The notes under the pieces: generated by a model
What the model was told of the DNA's origin: nothing
What the model saw: only the letters and a program-made list of their open reading frames with translations
Database searches by the model: none
Made by a program: the position numbers and the translations under genes
Virus record (IMG/VR): IMGVR_UViG_3300005613_000399
Coordinates: 1-24,778 of that record
Origin: a virus
DNA length: 24,778 bases
Direction: 5' to 3' (one strand)
Shown: in pieces, positions 4,080-24,778 of the stretch
How positions within the stretch are numbered: position 1 is the stretch's first letter
Layout: each line of letters starts with the position of its first letter

Positions 4080-4921
4080 AGTAGTCCGTTATTTTTAGAT
4101 TTAATTGGCCGAGAGGCAAACTCATTAGCATACCTTTCATAAACACCACGCAAAGTAACATTTATTTCTTTGCCATCAAACTTTCTACCTTCAAACCTTC
4201 CGGCAAGTAGTCTATCGGCCACGTTCATTTCTATGCCCATTCTATTCAAGATGCAGCATATCTTAAAAACGTATAGGTTTCTCTGCCCAGGCCGAAAGGT
4301 TATGCCTGTATTCTGCACTCCCTTTTCAGCTATCCTTAACGCATCATCTATACCCCTTACCTCCATAGGATTAAAGTAGATAGGTTTTTCCTCTGGCATG
4401 ATGGGTGGCGTGTAGGTAGGTGCTTCAAGGTTTAGGTACGCTTCGGGATCGTAGGACAAGTTACACTGTTTGTTTACAGGCTTTCCGGCTTTGTCGGAAA
4501 GGCCGAAGGCAAACTCTCTATCAATACACTCCCATGCCCACTTGTGATGGTGGTTATCCTTTGGGATAGCTGTTCTAAAGCCAATCTTAACTCCTCCCCT
4601 TGGGGAGCGGAACAAAAATAAAACGTATGTTGTGTCAAGGTAGGATAGTACCCTTTCGGCGCGTTGCTTTCCATCAATGTCTAAGTGTATAATTCCAGAA
4701 TGTTTAACTAAGTTTTCAGCCTTCTTCCCACCAGAAAATACCCCAGAGGGGAAAAAGGCCGGAAGCATCATCTTTGCAGCATCAGCCTCTTCCTTTTTCA
4801 TCTTCCTAATTGCACCAATCCTATCCCTCATAGCATCACTTTTAATATGCCCTATGATAGCCTTGATATGCACAGGCTTGCCCTCTAACTGATAGTTGTC
4901 TTGGAGAACGGTGCAAATCAT
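4076..4921 (-). CDS. Primase-like protein with BT4734/VirE_N domain
   Basis: A 281-residue protein. Residues 50-115 contain LPAFFPSGVFSGGKKAENL, HSGIIHLDIDGK (D81, D83) and FRSPRGGVKIGF. This is the pattern of the BT4734-like N-terminal domain, which I relate to archaeo-eukaryotic primases; the DxD pair would bind metal. A second part (about 190-265), including FRPGQRNLYVFKICCILNRMGI, resembles the helical C-terminal region that follows such primase cores. It may synthesise primers for phage replication. It lies just after the sliding clamp gene with an ATGA overlap. Polymerase activity is not certain, since many members are uncharacterised. Confidence 0.7.
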   Translation of the reverse strand: MICTVLQDNYQLEGKPVHIKAIIGHIKSDAMRDRIGAIRKMKKEEADAAKMMLPAFFPSGVFSGGKKAENLVKHSGIIHLDIDGKQRAERVLSYLDTTYVLFLFRSPRGGVKIGFRTAIPKDNHHHKWAWECIDREFAFGLSDKAGKPVNKQCNLSYDPEAYLNLEAPTYTPPIMPEEKPIYFNPMEVRGIDDALRIAEKGVQNTGITFRPGQRNLYVFKICCILNRMGIEMNVADRLLAGRFEGRKFDGKEINVTLRGVYERYANEFASRPIKSKNNGLL

Positions 4922-5967
4922 ATCATCACCGGCATAAAGTACAAGGCAACATCTCCCTTAATAATTCCTACCACTCGGTTGTCTGCTTGGAAGCCAATGG
5001 TAGCCTCACCAGTCATTCCCACAGCTTGAAGCAACTGCTTGCCGTTCAACCCCACAACATTCTCTTCCAGCAACCCATCAAACTCTTCCTCATAGTTCTT
5101 GCCAAAGTCAATATCTTCTGAGGACACTTTCCCATTGCCAATCCTAACAAGGGAAGTGGCTTTCGGGCTGAAAGATATGCACCTTTCCACAGCGCCCAAA
5201 AACTCTGGCAGGGAAACATCACAAAGCACTGGGTACTCTTTGATTATCACGCTTTCAATAACCTCTAATTTCATTGGGTTGTCAGAAGTTCGCATAAACA
5301 AAGAGGTAATGCCATCGCTAAACTGCTGCCACTTTTCAGAGGCGCCAACATTCACCATGCCTTGCATGCTCGCAACCACTGGGATATACCTCGGAGTAAT
5401 GCCTACAATCTTGCCATCGTTTTCCTCAACCCTATCTATGTCTTTGATAACGGCAAGGTAAACACTATACGCGTTGGTGGCGTAGCAATACACCTTATCC
5501 CTTCGTGTTTGGAGGTTTACTTGGCACATTTGTGGCCGGAGGTCATCGTTGCCTGCAAACCTGCCAGCTAGGGAAAGGTGTGAAACAAGGTCTTTTACTG
5601 GCTCGGAGAATAATGCTGGGGCCAAGGTGTAGTCAAAGGATAGAGCCGAAGAACTATCTTGGAGGGGCACTTGGCCTTTACCTCTACCGCTTTTGAAGTA
5701 TAGCACATCGGAAGCGGTAAGCTCTATCTCTTCGGCGCTTCCCTTATTTGCGATTGTTTCAAGGTCATAGTATGAAACATAAAAGTCGTTGGGAATGGTG
5801 TCGGGGATAGCCTCAATGTTAATCATTATGGCGGCATCTAAACCAGCACAAGATATTGTCCTGTCTGTTACCCTCAGCCAAGAAGTTGCTGGGGCGGTGC
5901 TTTTTGCTTTTGCTACTGGCGCCAAGGCTGCCAAGGCGTTTTTCAGTTGTGTTCGGGTTACTCTCAT
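4918..5967 (-). CDS. dnaN: Sliding clamp (DNA polymerase III beta-like), copy 1
   Basis: A 349-residue protein, near the usual 365 for bacterial beta clamps. Landmarks in order: an N-terminal helix after MRVTRTQLKNALAALAPVAK; DDLRPQMCQVNL with YCYATNAYSVYLAV at about 141-172, equivalent to the 'R..L.GV...ATDGHRL' block; KEYPVLCDVSLP, a weakened version of FPDYRRVIP; and a C-terminal YFMPVMI matching the VMPMRL end. It should encircle DNA and tether polymerase or repair proteins. It is divergent but full length. It is coupled by ATGA to both the SNF2 helicase and the primase-like gene. A second clamp is encoded at 17382-18635. Confidence 0.72.
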   Translation of the reverse strand: MRVTRTQLKNALAALAPVAKAKSTAPATSWLRVTDRTISCAGLDAAIMINIEAIPDTIPNDFYVSYYDLETIANKGSAEEIELTASDVLYFKSGRGKGQVPLQDSSSALSFDYTLAPALFSEPVKDLVSHLSLAGRFAGNDDLRPQMCQVNLQTRRDKVYCYATNAYSVYLAVIKDIDRVEENDGKIVGITPRYIPVVASMQGMVNVGASEKWQQFSDGITSLFMRTSDNPMKLEVIESVIIKEYPVLCDVSLPEFLGAVERCISFSPKATSLVRIGNGKVSSEDIDFGKNYEEEFDGLLEENVVGLNGKQLLQAVGMTGEATIGFQADNRVVGIIKGDVALYFMPVMI

Positions 5968-12457: not shown

Positions 12458-12848
12458 TTCTATAATCTTCACTTGTTGGTACTTCATAACCCATTCTCTC
12501 CAGGTACAAAACACAATCGCTAACAAAGGTCTTGAGCCTATTAAAGCTCATATCCCTCTTTCCCATTAGCACCGGTGTTTCCTCCCCAGTCAAAGGGTTA
12601 TGCACATTTCTTTTTGCAAATTGAAACTTCAAAAAATCATCTGCATAGCTCTCATCTGCCGGCTCACCCATATCTCTAAGGAAAGCCATACAAACTTCTA
12701 GCACAACAGCATGGTAATAGGCATACATAGCCTCCTTACCCCTATTGGCTGTGGTAATAACCACCCTGCCAGTCATTTTAGGCAAGAATTTCTTAAAGTC
12801 CTCGTCAACAATAATCCTCCCTTCCTTTATGGTGGCGTAGATAGTCAT
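12438..12848 (-). CDS. Hypothetical protein, possibly NinB/Orf-like recombination mediator
   Basis: A 136-residue protein. The first 35 residues are two or three strands (MTIYATIKEGRIIVDEDF, TGRVVITTANRG). Then come a helix MYAYYHAVVLEVCMAFLRDMG, the segment FLKFQFAKRNVHNPLTGEETPVL and a final helix ending in LERMGYEVPTSEDYR. The order 'strand pair, YYHAVV helix, P-TGE loop, F...LYLE helix' recalls NinB-type proteins of lambdoid phages that help recombination, but identity is too low to be firm. It is joined to the DnaA-like gene by ATGA. Confidence 0.7.
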   Translation of the reverse strand: MTIYATIKEGRIIVDEDFKKFLPKMTGRVVITTANRGKEAMYAYYHAVVLEVCMAFLRDMGEPADESYADDFLKFQFAKRNVHNPLTGEETPVLMGKRDMSFNRLKTFVSDCVLYLERMGYEVPTSEDYRNEKSID

Positions 12849-13192
12849 GCAAACTGTTTTAACTCTTGGTAAAAGCCCTTATTAAACTCTTGGGCGTTGG
12901 ATATTTGCTTGTCGTAGTACAGCAAGGTAGTTCTATCCTTACCTATAAACGACCAGATAACTTTTCTAGCAATGTTTAGGCTGGAAAGGTAAAAGTGTAT
13001 TGCTATTCGGGCTTTTACAATCTCCCGATTCTTTCTCTTGCCCTTAACATCTTCCATAGTAACATTGTAGTAGGCCAAGATATGGTCAACAGAGTTCTGG
13101 GCGGCATCCATCTGCCTAATTCTATTCTGTATCTTCAAACCCAATTCAATGAGTTCAAACTTATTCAATTCCGAAAGCCTTAAAGCGCTCAT
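12845..13192 (-). CDS. DnaA domain IV-like DNA-binding protein
   Basis: A 115-residue protein with residues 43-98 resembling the C-terminal helix-turn-helix domain of DnaA. NVTMEDVKGKRKNREIVKAR matches the 'V-x-dl-xskxRkrxIvxAR' start, and IGKDRTTLLYYDKQI matches the 'GxRDHTTVlha' DnaA-box-reading signature. There is no AAA+ ATPase domain. Residues 1-40 form a separate helical stretch. A stand-alone domain IV could bind DnaA boxes, recruiting the host machinery to a phage origin or interfering with host initiation. The overlap with the HNH gene stop is 32 bases. Confidence 0.68.
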   Translation of the reverse strand: MSALRLSELNKFELIELGLKIQNRIRQMDAAQNSVDHILAYYNVTMEDVKGKRKNREIVKARIAIHFYLSSLNIARKVIWSFIGKDRTTLLYYDKQISNAQEFNKGFYQELKQFA

Positions 13193-17381: not shown

Positions 17382-18635
17382 TTAATCGTTGTTAATCATT
17401 ACAGGCATGACAAGCAAGCTCTCATCATTGATAAGTGATGGCCTGTTTGCGCTTTCAAAGTGCAGGCTAAAGGAGCTGCCTTCGATACTTTTAAGGCACT
17501 CAGCTAAGAGTCTGCCATTGTACGCCACATAGCAATCATTCCCAGAGGCTGGCATATCAAAGCTAACCTCTGCCCCTGTGTCAATATCTGAGGCATAGAT
17601 ATTCAGGCTACCATCTTTGAGGGTTAATTTAACAGCCCTTGTTGAGGCGTTAATCTTTGCGGCGGTCTCGGCAAAGCCAATGAAGGTCTTTTTGTCCTGC
17701 ACAAAGATAGTGTTGGTCATGCCCTCTATTTTGGGGATTACGCATTTGTAGTCGGGGTATCTGGCATCGATCACCCCTTTGTCAATTACCACGCCATCAA
17801 GTTCAACCCTGCCGTTCTTGTAGGCTTTAGCCCCAGAGTATTTGAGTAGGGTGGCAACCTCTTTGCATAGGATTGCCGAGCCTTCCGAGGGCGCCGAAAT
17901 GACTCTAAGCCTATGGGCATCTGTCCCTACCATATTTTCCCCATCAAAGTACACGCCCATCATAGCTGGCCGCAGTTCGTCTTTCCCTAGGTAAGGAATA
18001 ATCCCTGAGCAATCTGTCTGAGGCACTGATAAGATAAGCTCATCGGCCTCTAGGGGTGTTGGTACGGTGTCATTCTCTGAGATCTTGGCTTTTATCCCAT
18101 TGGCAAAGGTGGCAAAGCCTGCATCAATACTAACCGGCAGGCCGTTTGCTTTTATGTAGCTTGCATCGAGGGAGCAGTCTGGCAGGTTTGTACCTTGCAG
18201 GACAACCGATCCGCGATCGCTAAGGTAGTGCATGTTGCCCTGGTTAAACCAGATGTAAGGCAATGCCTTGTTTACCGGCAGCACCCTGAGCAGTTCCTTT
18301 GCCGTTATGGTTGAGGGTTTGGGCGCTGGCTTGGGTGGCGCTGGTTTGGGTGGTGTTGGTGGCGCTGGCCTAGTTGGTTCCGGTGTTGGTGTTGGTGTTG
18401 GTGGCGCATAGATGGGCGCCGAAACAACTTCCACGTTTGCCAAGGTAACGGGCTGAGGGTTACTAATTACAGCGCGTATCTCCACCTCCTTTGTCTTTGA
18501 GGCAATCCAGCCTGGGCCGCCTTTCAGGTAGGGGTTATACCTTGCCCCTAGGCTTTTTAGAGCATCCTTTAGGGGTTTGGTGTCGCCATAAATTTTTATG
18601 GCTTTTTCCGAGTAGGTTACGATTTGAATGTTCAT
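17382..18635 (-). CDS. dnaN: Sliding clamp copy 2, fused to an N-terminal module
   Basis: A 417-residue fusion. Residues 1-55 form a small module (IYGDTKPLKDALKSLGARYN, GGPGWIASKTK), a type I associate with mobile-element proteins. A Pro/Thr-rich linker follows at about 74-108. From about 110 the sequence is beta-clamp-like: DELRPAMMGVYF, NMVGTDAHRLRV (near residue 240), ARYPDYKCVIPK (291-302, equal to the FPDYRRVIPK block) and a VMPVM end. Domain I is shortened. It retains the canonical motifs better than copy 1. Two clamps may serve different partners; the N-terminal module may target one. A leader with AACCTTTAACCCTTTAACCC precedes the ATG. Confidence 0.82.
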   Translation of the reverse strand: MNIQIVTYSEKAIKIYGDTKPLKDALKSLGARYNPYLKGGPGWIASKTKEVEIRAVISNPQPVTLANVEVVSAPIYAPPTPTPTPEPTRPAPPTPPKPAPPKPAPKPSTITAKELLRVLPVNKALPYIWFNQGNMHYLSDRGSVVLQGTNLPDCSLDASYIKANGLPVSIDAGFATFANGIKAKISENDTVPTPLEADELILSVPQTDCSGIIPYLGKDELRPAMMGVYFDGENMVGTDAHRLRVISAPSEGSAILCKEVATLLKYSGAKAYKNGRVELDGVVIDKGVIDARYPDYKCVIPKIEGMTNTIFVQDKKTFIGFAETAAKINASTRAVKLTLKDGSLNIYASDIDTGAEVSFDMPASGNDCYVAYNGRLLAECLKSIEGSSFSLHFESANRPSLINDESLLVMPVMINND

Positions 18636-21120: not shown

Positions 21121-21186
21121 CCCTATTTATGGAGTCGAACCATACAAGTATGGAGTTGAGCCATACAAGCCACCACTGGAATAGGT
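21121..21186 (-). other. tRNA-like tandem hairpin
   Basis: On the minus strand two near-identical 21-base units each form a hairpin of 5 base pairs (TATGG/CCATA) around a 7-base loop. The second loop is TTCGACT, which fits the T-loop consensus TTCRANY. The first loop is CTCAACT, with T at position 33 and a CAA anticodon. ACCTATT and AATAGGG flank them and pair in six of seven positions, like an acceptor stem. The D-arm region is too short (14 bases) and base 37 is C. It may be a degenerate tRNA, a tRNA mimic, or a structured leader made by repeat duplication. Confidence 0.35.
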
Positions 21187-21727: not shown

Positions 21728-22075
21728 TCATTTGCGCTTATTCAACCTATATGCAATGCGGTCTTGCTTTTGTTTTTTGCTTCGTTCAGTTTTAAAGGTT
21801 TCTATTTGCTCTATTCGTTCTAGTTTACGTGCTGTTGCCAAAGTGCGGGCAAAGGTATCTTCTATGCGCTCTAAGGTAATTTGGGTTCGCTCTCTTTTGC
21901 CGTCCGATTGCCTCCGTTTAATAACGCCCGAACCTTTATAGGAATTAACCTCTTTGGTTTGGTTTAAGATATCGCCGTGGAAAATTTCGCCCGTAGTTTT
22001 GTGAGTAGTGACTACACTAAACGGGCTAACTTCGTTGGGATTGTTCCTGAGCTTTATGTGAGTAGTTAATTTCAT
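21728..22075 (-). CDS. Hypothetical highly basic protein
   Basis: A 115-residue protein. A short beta-like N-terminal part (MKLTTHIKLRNNPNEVSPF, TTHKTTGEIFHGDI) is followed by a strongly basic and helical remainder (VIKRRQSDGKRERTQITLE, then FKTERSKKQKQDRIAYRLNK). The charge suggests nucleic-acid binding. It is the first gene downstream of the large repeat region on the minus strand, so it may bind that region or its transcript, although this is inference. Confidence 0.68.
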   Translation of the reverse strand: MKLTTHIKLRNNPNEVSPFSVVTTHKTTGEIFHGDILNQTKEVNSYKGSGVIKRRQSDGKRERTQITLERIEDTFARTLATARKLERIEQIETFKTERSKKQKQDRIAYRLNKRK

Positions 22076-22093
22076 ATCTGATTAATTGCTTCA

Positions 22094-22124
22094 CAAAGTA
22101 CGATAGAAAAAATGGCATATGCAA
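22094..22124 (-). promoter_or_regulatory. Candidate promoter for the 21728-22075 gene
   Basis: Minus-strand TACTTTG (22100-22094) is one base short of the Bacteroidota -7 consensus TAnnTTTG, with a TTG 21 bases upstream (22124-22122). It lies about 20 bases before the ATG at 22075. Weaker than the 14777 site. Confidence 0.35.
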
Positions 22125-22232
22125 TAGCTATTTTGAAAAAAAATACACTTTTTTAGAATCTTTTTTTGAAAGTCCTTTATTTGCAAGGGTTTCAGAGGGT
22201 AAAAAAAATTCAAAAAAAGTACATTTTTTTTG

Positions 22233-22270
22233 GTTTGTGTTTGGTTTGGTTTGGGTTTGGGGGGGGGTTG
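22233..22270 (+). repeat. G-tract array (possible G-quadruplex)
   Basis: Plus strand contains GG, GG, GG, GGG and a run of eight G, separated by TTT spacers (with one GTG interruption), then GG. The spacing would allow a two-layer G-quadruplex, or an R-loop when transcribed. It lies in the repeat-rich gap beside A/T homopolymer palindromes. Confidence 0.5.
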
Positions 22271-22446
22271 GATAAAAAAAGAGTGAACGAATGACCAAGC
22301 TCAGTCCACAAAATAGGGGCAAATTTGCAACTGTGATCAACCTTGGTACGCGTTCAATGGAATTTTTTGGGTTGCATATCTACCTAAATAACATTAACGC
22401 AATGAACAAAGGGTAAAAGTTACGATTGAAAGATACACGCCCGCCC

Positions 22447-22605
22447 ACGTGTGCGCGTGTGTGTGCCCGCGTGTGCGTGCGCGTGTAGGTGTGCGCGTGT
22501 GTGCGTGTGCGTGGGTGAGGGGTTTCTTTTCGCGTTTCTTTTCGCGTGGGTGCGTGCGTGTGGGTGCGTGCGCGTGTGCGTGTGCGCGTGTGGGTGGGGT
22601 GGGGT
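22447..22605. repeat. Alternating GT/CG purine-pyrimidine block
   Basis: Long stretches of GTGTGCGCGTGTGTGCGTG-type sequence, interrupted by a duplicated TTTCTTTTCGCG segment near 22528-22548. Alternating purine-pyrimidine DNA with CG steps is prone to Z-DNA. Its base composition differs strongly from the neighbouring genes. Translated frames through it are Thr/His/Arg or Val/Cys repeats and are not considered coding. Confidence 0.75.
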
Positions 22606-22660
22606 GCAAGGGCGCGGGTACTTTGGCGCGCCGGCACGTGCGCTGGATCTGTACGATACA

Positions 22661-22736
22661 CCACGAACACAAAGAGGTAAACCATTTTCCTTTACCACGA
22701 ACACAAAGAGGTAAACCACGAACACAAAGAGGTAAA
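22661..22736. repeat. Three exact 21-base direct repeats
   Basis: Copies of a unit with core CACGAACACAAAGAGGTAA start at 22661, 22695 and 22716; the last two abut and the first is 13 bases away from the second. The end of the unit (GAGGTAA) is the reverse complement of the TTACCTC core found in the tandem array that follows at 22745. Iteron-like arrangement. Confidence 0.85.
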
Positions 22737-22744
22737 TGGTTTGG

Positions 22745-22887
22745 GTTACCTTTCTGCCAGTTACCTCGTTGCCAGTTTCCTCTCCCCAAGTTCCCTCCAT
22801 CAAGTTACCTCTCCCCAAGTTACCCTGCTGCCAGTTATCCTCCAGGTTGCTTTCCCCCAGTTACCTTGCTACTGTTTCTCTCCTTTG
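22745..22887. repeat. About ten degenerate 15-base tandem repeats
   Basis: Units begin with GTT and usually follow GTTACCTCTCCCCAA or GTTACCTTTCTGCCA. Unit starts are 22745, 22760, 22775, 22790, 22804, 22819, 22834, 22846, 22860 and 22874. Unit lengths are 15, 15, 15, 14, 15, 15, 12, 14, 14 and 14. Phase is not conserved to codon triplets, arguing against a coding repeat. Resembles an iteron array of a replication origin. Confidence 0.78.
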
Positions 22888-22997
22888 GTTGTTCTTGTGG
22901 AATTTCTCTCACCGCTGTTGAGATAATTGATGGGGTGGGTGTTGAGGGGGGTGGTGTTTTTTTGATATGGTGCTTTTCGGCGCGGTTGGGTAATGGG

Positions 22998-23549: not shown

Positions 23550-23763
23550 TGATTGAGTCGCATAAAGATTTGGCTAGATCGTAATCCTGTTGGGTTTCAT
23601 ACCTGTGGCCGGTGGAAGGCTTGCCCCACACTCTGAGCCACCGCTGTGAGGGGGTGGTGCCTAGGTTGGTGTAGAACTCTATAACGCTTACCTTGTCCTC
23701 AGAGATTATTTCTAGCTCTGTGCCCAGGTAGTTGTTGTCTAGGGGAAGTATTCTGGCTCTCAT
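23530..23763 (-). CDS. Hypothetical small protein
   Basis: A 77-residue protein: beta-rich first half (MRARILPLDNNYLGTELEI, KVSVIEFYTNLGTTPSQRW) and a short helix (QQDYDLAKSLCDSINAA). ATGA overlap with the metallophosphoesterase gene upstream. Nothing recognised. A small alpha+beta fold is likely. Confidence 0.68.
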   Translation of the reverse strand: MRARILPLDNNYLGTELEIISEDKVSVIEFYTNLGTTPSQRWLRVWGKPSTGHRYETQQDYDLAKSLCDSINAAPTD

Positions 23764-24778
23764 CGTACTTTGCGGTCAATGATTCTAAAGTTCTCAACGC
23801 TAAAGTCGCCGTCTTCATCAACATCTACAATCGCCGCCCCGTGATTCCATTTCGTGTATGCGAATGGTCGGTAGGCTGGTTGCAAGTCGCACAAACACCC
23901 AGTCGAAAAGCAAGCGGTAGGCTGGCCGTTCAGGTTGTTCTCGTGGTGTTCCGATGTTTGGTGGTTATGGCCCGCAAGTACGCTTGACTTACCACGAAGG
24001 AACAAGCCCCTCGCTGGGTTAACTGGGCTGAAGATGCTATCGCCAAACTCGTGGCCGTGCAGTACACTTAGCTTGCCGAACTTGGCGTGTTGGCGGCTGT
24101 CGATTAGTTCAATCTCAAGTTCGTCAAGGCCAAGGGCGGCTTTAAATTGAAGGCCGGGCAGCGTTATCAACTCAGGTGCATTTTGAAGTATGTACTTTTC
24201 CCAGCGGTCTTCGTGGTTGCCCAGCTTGTAGAACACAGGCAAGCCAAGGCTGACCAACCCTTGCAGAAAATCCCTTACCATTTGCACCTCAACGGGAGCC
24301 GACATTAACGCTGGGTCTTTGTCCCAACGGCTAATTTTGGCAAAGTCAATACAATCCCCGTTAATGTAAAATGCATCAATGCCTTTCTTAAAGCCATAGT
24401 CGATTGACGTTTCAATTGCCGACAATTCGTGGTAGGGAAAATGAAGGTCGGACATTACAAGTGGCTTGCGTATGCTTTTAGGCAAATGCCAAACATCTTT
24501 GCTGGTCTTTTCCCCTCGGCCGATAAACGCTTGCATGTACTCGGAGGGCTTCATCTGCTCGGGGTTATAAAGGTTTTCCCTCAACGCCCCGCTGCTTGTT
24601 GCATAATTTCTTTGCTGCTCGCCCGCATTCCCAGTACGGTAACGGATTGAAAACCGTACATTGTCGATTTCTGCATTTGTTTGCTCGAACAGGCCCGGGT
24701 TTTCCATTACAATTTTTCGTGCAAGTGTACGCTTGAAGAAGCCAGCATCTTGGCCGTCAATGTACTTTTCAATGATTT
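23760..24778 (-). CDS. Metallophosphoesterase with N-terminal phage-type module, 5' partial
   Basis: The frame is open to the window edge, so the gene begins outside it; an internal ATG lies at 24707. Counting from that ATG, the calcineurin-like motifs are all present: SDLHF (D87, H89), NGDCID (D118), GNHED (N164, H165), LHGHE (H217, H219) and AGHNH (246-249). The visible N-terminal region (RTLARKI, ENPGLFEQTNAEIDNVRFS, RYRTGNAG) is a module often joined to phage phosphoesterases. Substrate could be nucleotides, cyclic or capped nucleotides, or DNA ends. An Mre11-like partner for the Rad50-like protein is possible but far away. Confidence 0.85.
   Translation of the reverse strand, partial: IIEKYIDGQDAGFFKRTLARKIVMENPGLFEQTNAEIDNVRFSIRYRTGNAGEQQRNYATSSGALRENLYNPEQMKPSEYMQAFIGRGEKTSKDVWHLPKSIRKPLVMSDLHFPYHELSAIETSIDYGFKKGIDAFYINGDCIDFAKISRWDKDPALMSAPVEVQMVRDFLQGLVSLGLPVFYKLGNHEDRWEKYILQNAPELITLPGLQFKAALGLDELEIELIDSRQHAKFGKLSVLHGHEFGDSIFSPVNPARGLFLRGKSSVLAGHNHQTSEHHENNLNGQPTACFSTGCLCDLQPAYRPFAYTKWNHGAAIVDVDEDGDFSVENFRIIDRKVR

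Follow-up and report, generated by a model that had tools for sequence, protein, structure and literature searches.

We propose that a 922-base non-coding gap in a virus fragment from IMG/VR (24.8 kb) is a phage replication origin whose iteron-like initiator sites turn over quickly, combined with an early control region. From our computational analysis, we give this reading a probability of about one half. (By the window, we mean the whole stretch of DNA that was analysed, which is 24,778 nucleotides long.) An origin is the best fit because a large gap has been retained, because its repeat field has been renewed while keeping its core, because one segment is AT-rich and unstable, and because an early operon with replication genes is adjacent. 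The repeats themselves, both the 21-mers and the degenerate units, are real and far beyond chance. The features are as follows, with coordinates in the window.

22076-22997, minus strand: non-coding gap of 922 bases, flanked by the stop side of the p81 gene and by the first early gene; its position is conserved in two other phage types
22998-23243, minus strand: p81, a small basic protein (PHROG 6437)
22745-22887, minus strand: degenerate tandem array (block A) of about 10 units of 12-15 bases, with the core AGGTAAC on the gene strand
22715-22735, plus strand: 21-mer, copy 3, in tandem with copy 2
22694-22714, plus strand: 21-mer, copy 2
22660-22680, plus strand: 21-mer, copy 1, the boundary copy
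22443-22592, no strand: GC-rich alternating purine-pyrimidine tract (Z-DNA-like) of about 150 bases
22522-22547, minus strand: 12-base direct repeat GCGAAAAGAAAC, 2.2 copies, inside the tract
22076-22260, no strand: AT-rich part (about 70-78% A+T), a candidate unwinding element
22211-22233, no strand: second arm, CAAAAAAAGTACATTTTTTTTGG, of a spaced inverted repeat within the AT-rich part
22135-22154, no strand: first arm, GAAAAAAAATACACTTTTT, of this inverted repeat
22094-22124, minus strand: weak Bacteroidota-type promoter, TTG-N21-TACTTTG, one base short, as read from the window sequence
12845-13192, minus strand: candidate initiator of 115 amino acids, whose DNA-binding domain resembles DnaA domain IV

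The 21-mer (ACCACGAACACAAAGAGGTAA) is present in three exact copies, all of them in the repeat field, and in none of 100 shuffles. Apart from these three sites, the window contains no copy of it, even if 3 mismatches are allowed, and we did not find the exact 21-mer in other IMG/VR contigs. The first-pass annotation had reported three exact copies, and these are borne out at 22660, 22694, and 22715. It had drawn the feature at 22661-22887; the repeats are there, but the feature reaches further and the repeats are one part of the gap. We rejected the idea that the 21-mer is a dispersed repeat of Bacteroidota: a 15-base part of it occurs in 4 of 395 genomes, which is about the number expected by chance, and in unrelated contexts.

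The tandem array was identified by TRF at 22745-22842 (with a period of 15 or 30) and can be followed by eye to about 22887. Its ten units start at 22745, 22760, 22775, 22790, 22804, 22819, 22834, 22846, 22860, and 22874. The self-match of the array at a lag of 15 is 0.586, versus 0.300 (standard deviation 0.040) in 1,000 dinucleotide shuffles, and none of the shuffles equals it at any lag from 8 to 35. An array of about ten units that begin with TTACCTC had been described. The array is genuine, if degenerate, but the common start was overstated: TTACCTC is exact in just 2 of the 10 units (22761 and 22805), and TTACC is found in 5 of the 10. This makes a core shared by both blocks in two orientations weaker than had been claimed, and the claim fails in the relatives (see below), where the opposite-orientation TTACCTC is not conserved and TTATCCC is found. 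Furthermore, GAGGTAA occurs 11 more times in the window beyond the field, so this 7-mer alone is weak evidence that one protein acts on both blocks. The repeats are spaced by 14-16 bases in the array, by 21 and 34 bases between the 21-mers, and by 13-33 bases in the relatives. Helical phasing is absent; units 15 bases apart do not fall in phase with the helix.

Relatives were found via the neighbouring phosphoesterase gene: three contigs have the order phosphoesterase, p77, p81, gap, and early genes. A scan for conserved motifs gave a fourth contig, which is identical in this region to one of the three, and a second such scan gave no additional relatives. The relatives represent two further sequence types (L010/L011 and L017/L110), and with the window these are the only three independent versions of the region in the collections that we searched. 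A single map of about 69 kb accounts for the window and for contigs of 65.9 kb and 65.1 kb, all three of which are circular permutations of it; the repeat field is therefore internal and is not a genome end. In the same group, L117-L120 and L135 had no match to the gap (L135 begins downstream of it), and neither isolate phages nor plasmids matched it. GGTAA-rich spots in L024, L036, and L040 and a 586-base gap call in L019 were discarded because they look like coding sequence. The phosphoesterase (23760-24707) is 85-88% identical in more than 12 phage contigs in which none of the other tested genes has a match, which suggests that this gene moves between phages independently. These contigs do not carry the gap.

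The gap, which is the largest intergenic region in the window, has the same layout in all three phage types: the GGTAAC block is nearest p81, followed by the second repeat block, the alternating tract, the AT-rich end, and the early genes. It does not appear to be coding, as stops interrupt every frame in all three phages, and the long chance frames seen in the window and G002 do not stay open in G003. Between phages, the alignment is at 69-98% identity beside the p81 stop and over 22440-22640. The alternating tract, which is the strongest purine-pyrimidine alternation anywhere in each contig, is conserved in blocks at 69-98% identity, and the 12-base direct repeat within it is conserved as well. 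The repeat field (22690-22920) is the least conserved part of the region, at only about 40-60% identity to the relatives over most of its length. Identity at 4-fold sites, our neutral yardstick, varied from 0.51 to 0.91 between genes, which is too variable to prove constraint.

In each of the three contigs, GGTAA/TTACC is most densely clustered at this syntenic position (9, 8, and 10 copies per 250 bp, with about 1 expected), and none of 1,000 shuffles matched the GGTAA count in any of the three contigs. In the relatives, the 8 and 10 occurrences are on the gene strand, while the 9 in the window are counted over both strands. The GGTAAC block nearest p81 has 2 copies in L011 and 3 in L017; in the window it is the expanded 15-base array. 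The second block consists of GGTAAA units with GCTTATCCC in the relatives and of the 21-mers in the window. The site that is orthologous to copy 1 of the 21-mer reads GCTTATCCCTTTGTGTTCCCGGTGTAT or CTTATCCCTTTGTGTTCCCGGTGTAT in the relatives, and because this boundary copy is orthologous to CTTATCCCTTTGTGTTCCCGGTGTAT, the three copies in the window look like a local expansion. Thus, the alignment among relatives that had been recommended as a check gave a divided answer: the cluster of GGTAA cores is kept at the syntenic place, but the exact 21-mer and 15-mer units are missing from both other types at the same gap. The length, copy number, and orientation of the units also vary among the phages. 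The core common to the three versions may simply have been left over from one ancestral array.

On the far side of the alternating tract, the AT-rich segment lies about 400 bp from the repeats. When the 100-bp windows of each contig are ranked by instability, the least stable one in the gap falls within the top 0.09-0.66%; the most stable (GC) 100-bp window of each contig is in the gap too. The spaced inverted pair was predicted in L011 and aligns in all three phages. Both relatives have a full-consensus promoter, TTG-N19/20-TANNTTTG, at the same place as the weak promoter of the window, 30-60 bp before the first early gene. Near-identical leaders of the AACCTTTAACCCTTTAATACCAAAAACCATG type stand before many early genes of L010, L011, and L017. 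The window has one more 21-base tandem repeat, TATGGAGTCGAACCATACAAG, at 21128-21169 in a smaller gap between genes; it has 2 copies and an internal palindrome of the GTATGG/CCATAC type.

Nearly all genes in the window point leftward. Those near the gap include replication-type genes: two DnaN-like clamps, a SNF2 helicase, a BT4734/VirE-like protein, and a PDDEXK nuclease. RadC is also encoded in the window. One DnaN-like protein (17382-18635) has extra N-terminal residues (2-59), which alone match Prevotella Lak megaphages, at 43-46% identity; the second clamp (4918-5967) is different. The p81 protein is always directly upstream of the gap in this group and is 96% identical in the relatives. 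In the relative L102 (12103-14192), the large subunit of the terminase appears to be split into a 439-amino-acid frame without family matches and then a 256-amino-acid frame, which matches the C-terminal part of the TerL profile only. The host of the bacteriophage is probably a member of the Bacteroidota, given the Bacteroidota-style promoters in the relatives and weak gene matches; a host search with the AAA protein gave one weak match, to Flectobacillus, over the first 44 residues only.

We infer that the gap is bound by protein, melts, and has origin activity. Several copies of a phage-encoded initiator would bind the GGTAA-core repeats, and strain in the DNA from the bound complex would then open the AT-rich segment (22076-22260), beside an early promoter that would fire toward the replication genes. 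The alternating tract in between may absorb supercoiling. The best candidate for the initiator is the 115-amino-acid protein encoded at 12845-13192. It matches the DnaA domain IV structures 3pvp and 1j1v and Pfam's Bac_DnaA_C (E = 4e-7, slightly short of the curated cut-off), and it is 85-91% identical in the relatives. No initiator gene adjoins the gap. The basic 115-amino-acid protein at 21728-22075 had also been named as a possible repeat binder to test, but its gene is absent from the relatives. A more specific proposal, which we consider improbable, is that the free-standing DnaA domain IV-like protein (with its DHTT motif changed to DRTT) reads the fast-turnover GGTAA-core sites and that a Z-DNA-forming tract between these sites and the unwinding element serves as a supercoil sink.

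As at iteron origins, the gap has several copies of a short repeat with a common core; the helical phase that is usual in plasmids is lacking. We rejected a DnaA-dependent (oriC-type) origin, as the three gaps contain no DnaA boxes (with up to 1 mismatch), where 0.7-1.3 are expected. The minimum of the cumulative GC skew is 4-7 kb downstream of the gap and the skew tracks the gene strand; the third-position skew is uninformative as to the place of the origin. The iteron-like origin suggested by the first-pass annotation is therefore sustained in part, by the cluster of GGTAA cores that is kept in the largest gap near replication genes, but not by unit conservation, phasing, or DnaA boxes. Because there is no DnaA box, the skew is uninformative, and the basic protein is absent from the relatives, an origin is no more than the leading inference; and because phasing is missing, the AT-rich part is distant, and the skew is uninformative, we do not class the gap as a proven iteron origin.

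The main rival to an origin is an operator array, which we view as possible but rather unlikely: a phage regulator on the GGTAA repeats would control the early operon, which reads leftward from 22075, possibly along with the end of the p81 operon, and would have no role in replication. The full-consensus promoters of both relatives suit this, the spaced inverted repeat in the AT-rich part resembles an operator, and the region is kept in phages whose operons start with different genes. However, about 600 bp separate the repeats from the promoter downstream of them, and in the window this promoter is an imperfect one. Also, phage repressor operators usually turn over more slowly than this field. 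A second rival is mostly neutral turnover: slippage in an unconstrained gap would make and lose GT/GA-rich repeats, with GGTAA only as a relic of the ancestral unit. The low conservation of the field relative to the neighbouring tract, the variation of its units, and the other low-complexity tracts in the gap are all consistent with such neutral turnover, but we think it unlikely: GGTAA is above shuffles in all three phages although the remaining field no longer aligns, a 0.9-kb gap would not otherwise be retained in a dense phage genome, and the adjoining tract is conserved at up to 98%.

Another kind of DNA site, such as a packaging start, a partition site, or a recombination site, seems very unlikely to us. 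Circular permutation would suit headful packaging from a pac site and a relative encodes a serine recombinase, but the terminase-like gene is about 6-7 kb away on the opposite strand, the contig ends do not cluster here (the sole break is in a C-run, in L110), and the genes scanned included none that is ParA/B-like. The presence of conserved non-coding sequence upstream of the early operon might also suggest a structured or regulatory RNA, which we find barely credible: z-scores for folding of the field range from -0.15 to +2.0, the covariation term from RNAalifold is unfavourable, and the sole Rfam match of the gap falls far short of its gathering score.

In uncultured phages, origins are rarely identified. 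If the gap is a true origin, then it provides a defined segment of 0.9 kb with a candidate initiator, and it shows how far initiator sites can drift while a 5-base core stays. If it is a control region instead, then the repeats are candidate operators of the early operon.

The region is a candidate for a familiar kind, the repeat-bearing non-coding control region of a phage. PLE, a satellite of Vibrio cholerae phage, has a non-coding origin with repeats, including RepA iterons (PMC7145576, PMC8263062). As in our gap, there are several types of repeats, which diverge between variants, and in PLE one type is bound by the element's initiator (PMC7145576, PMC8263062). In contrast, the PLE iterons are semi-palindromes of about 30 bp that are bound by a RepA_N protein, while our repeats have a 5-base core in units of 13-21 bases, and our family searches identified no RepA_N protein. 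The lambda origin, with O-protein iterons beside an AT-rich region, likewise combines repeated sites (here, putative initiator sites), an AT-rich segment, and transcription of early genes close by (PMC5043065). However, the lambda sites are four regular 19-bp inverted repeats within the O gene, immediately adjoining an AT-rich stretch of 40 bp, while those of the gap are irregular, intergenic, and distant from its AT-rich part. Plasmid iterons are usually in helical phase (PMC5043065), and DnaA boxes often act together with them; neither is true of the repeats of the gap. What the gap shares with the iteron origins of P1, RK2, F, and pSC101 is a set of direct repeats with a common core, within a non-coding control region.
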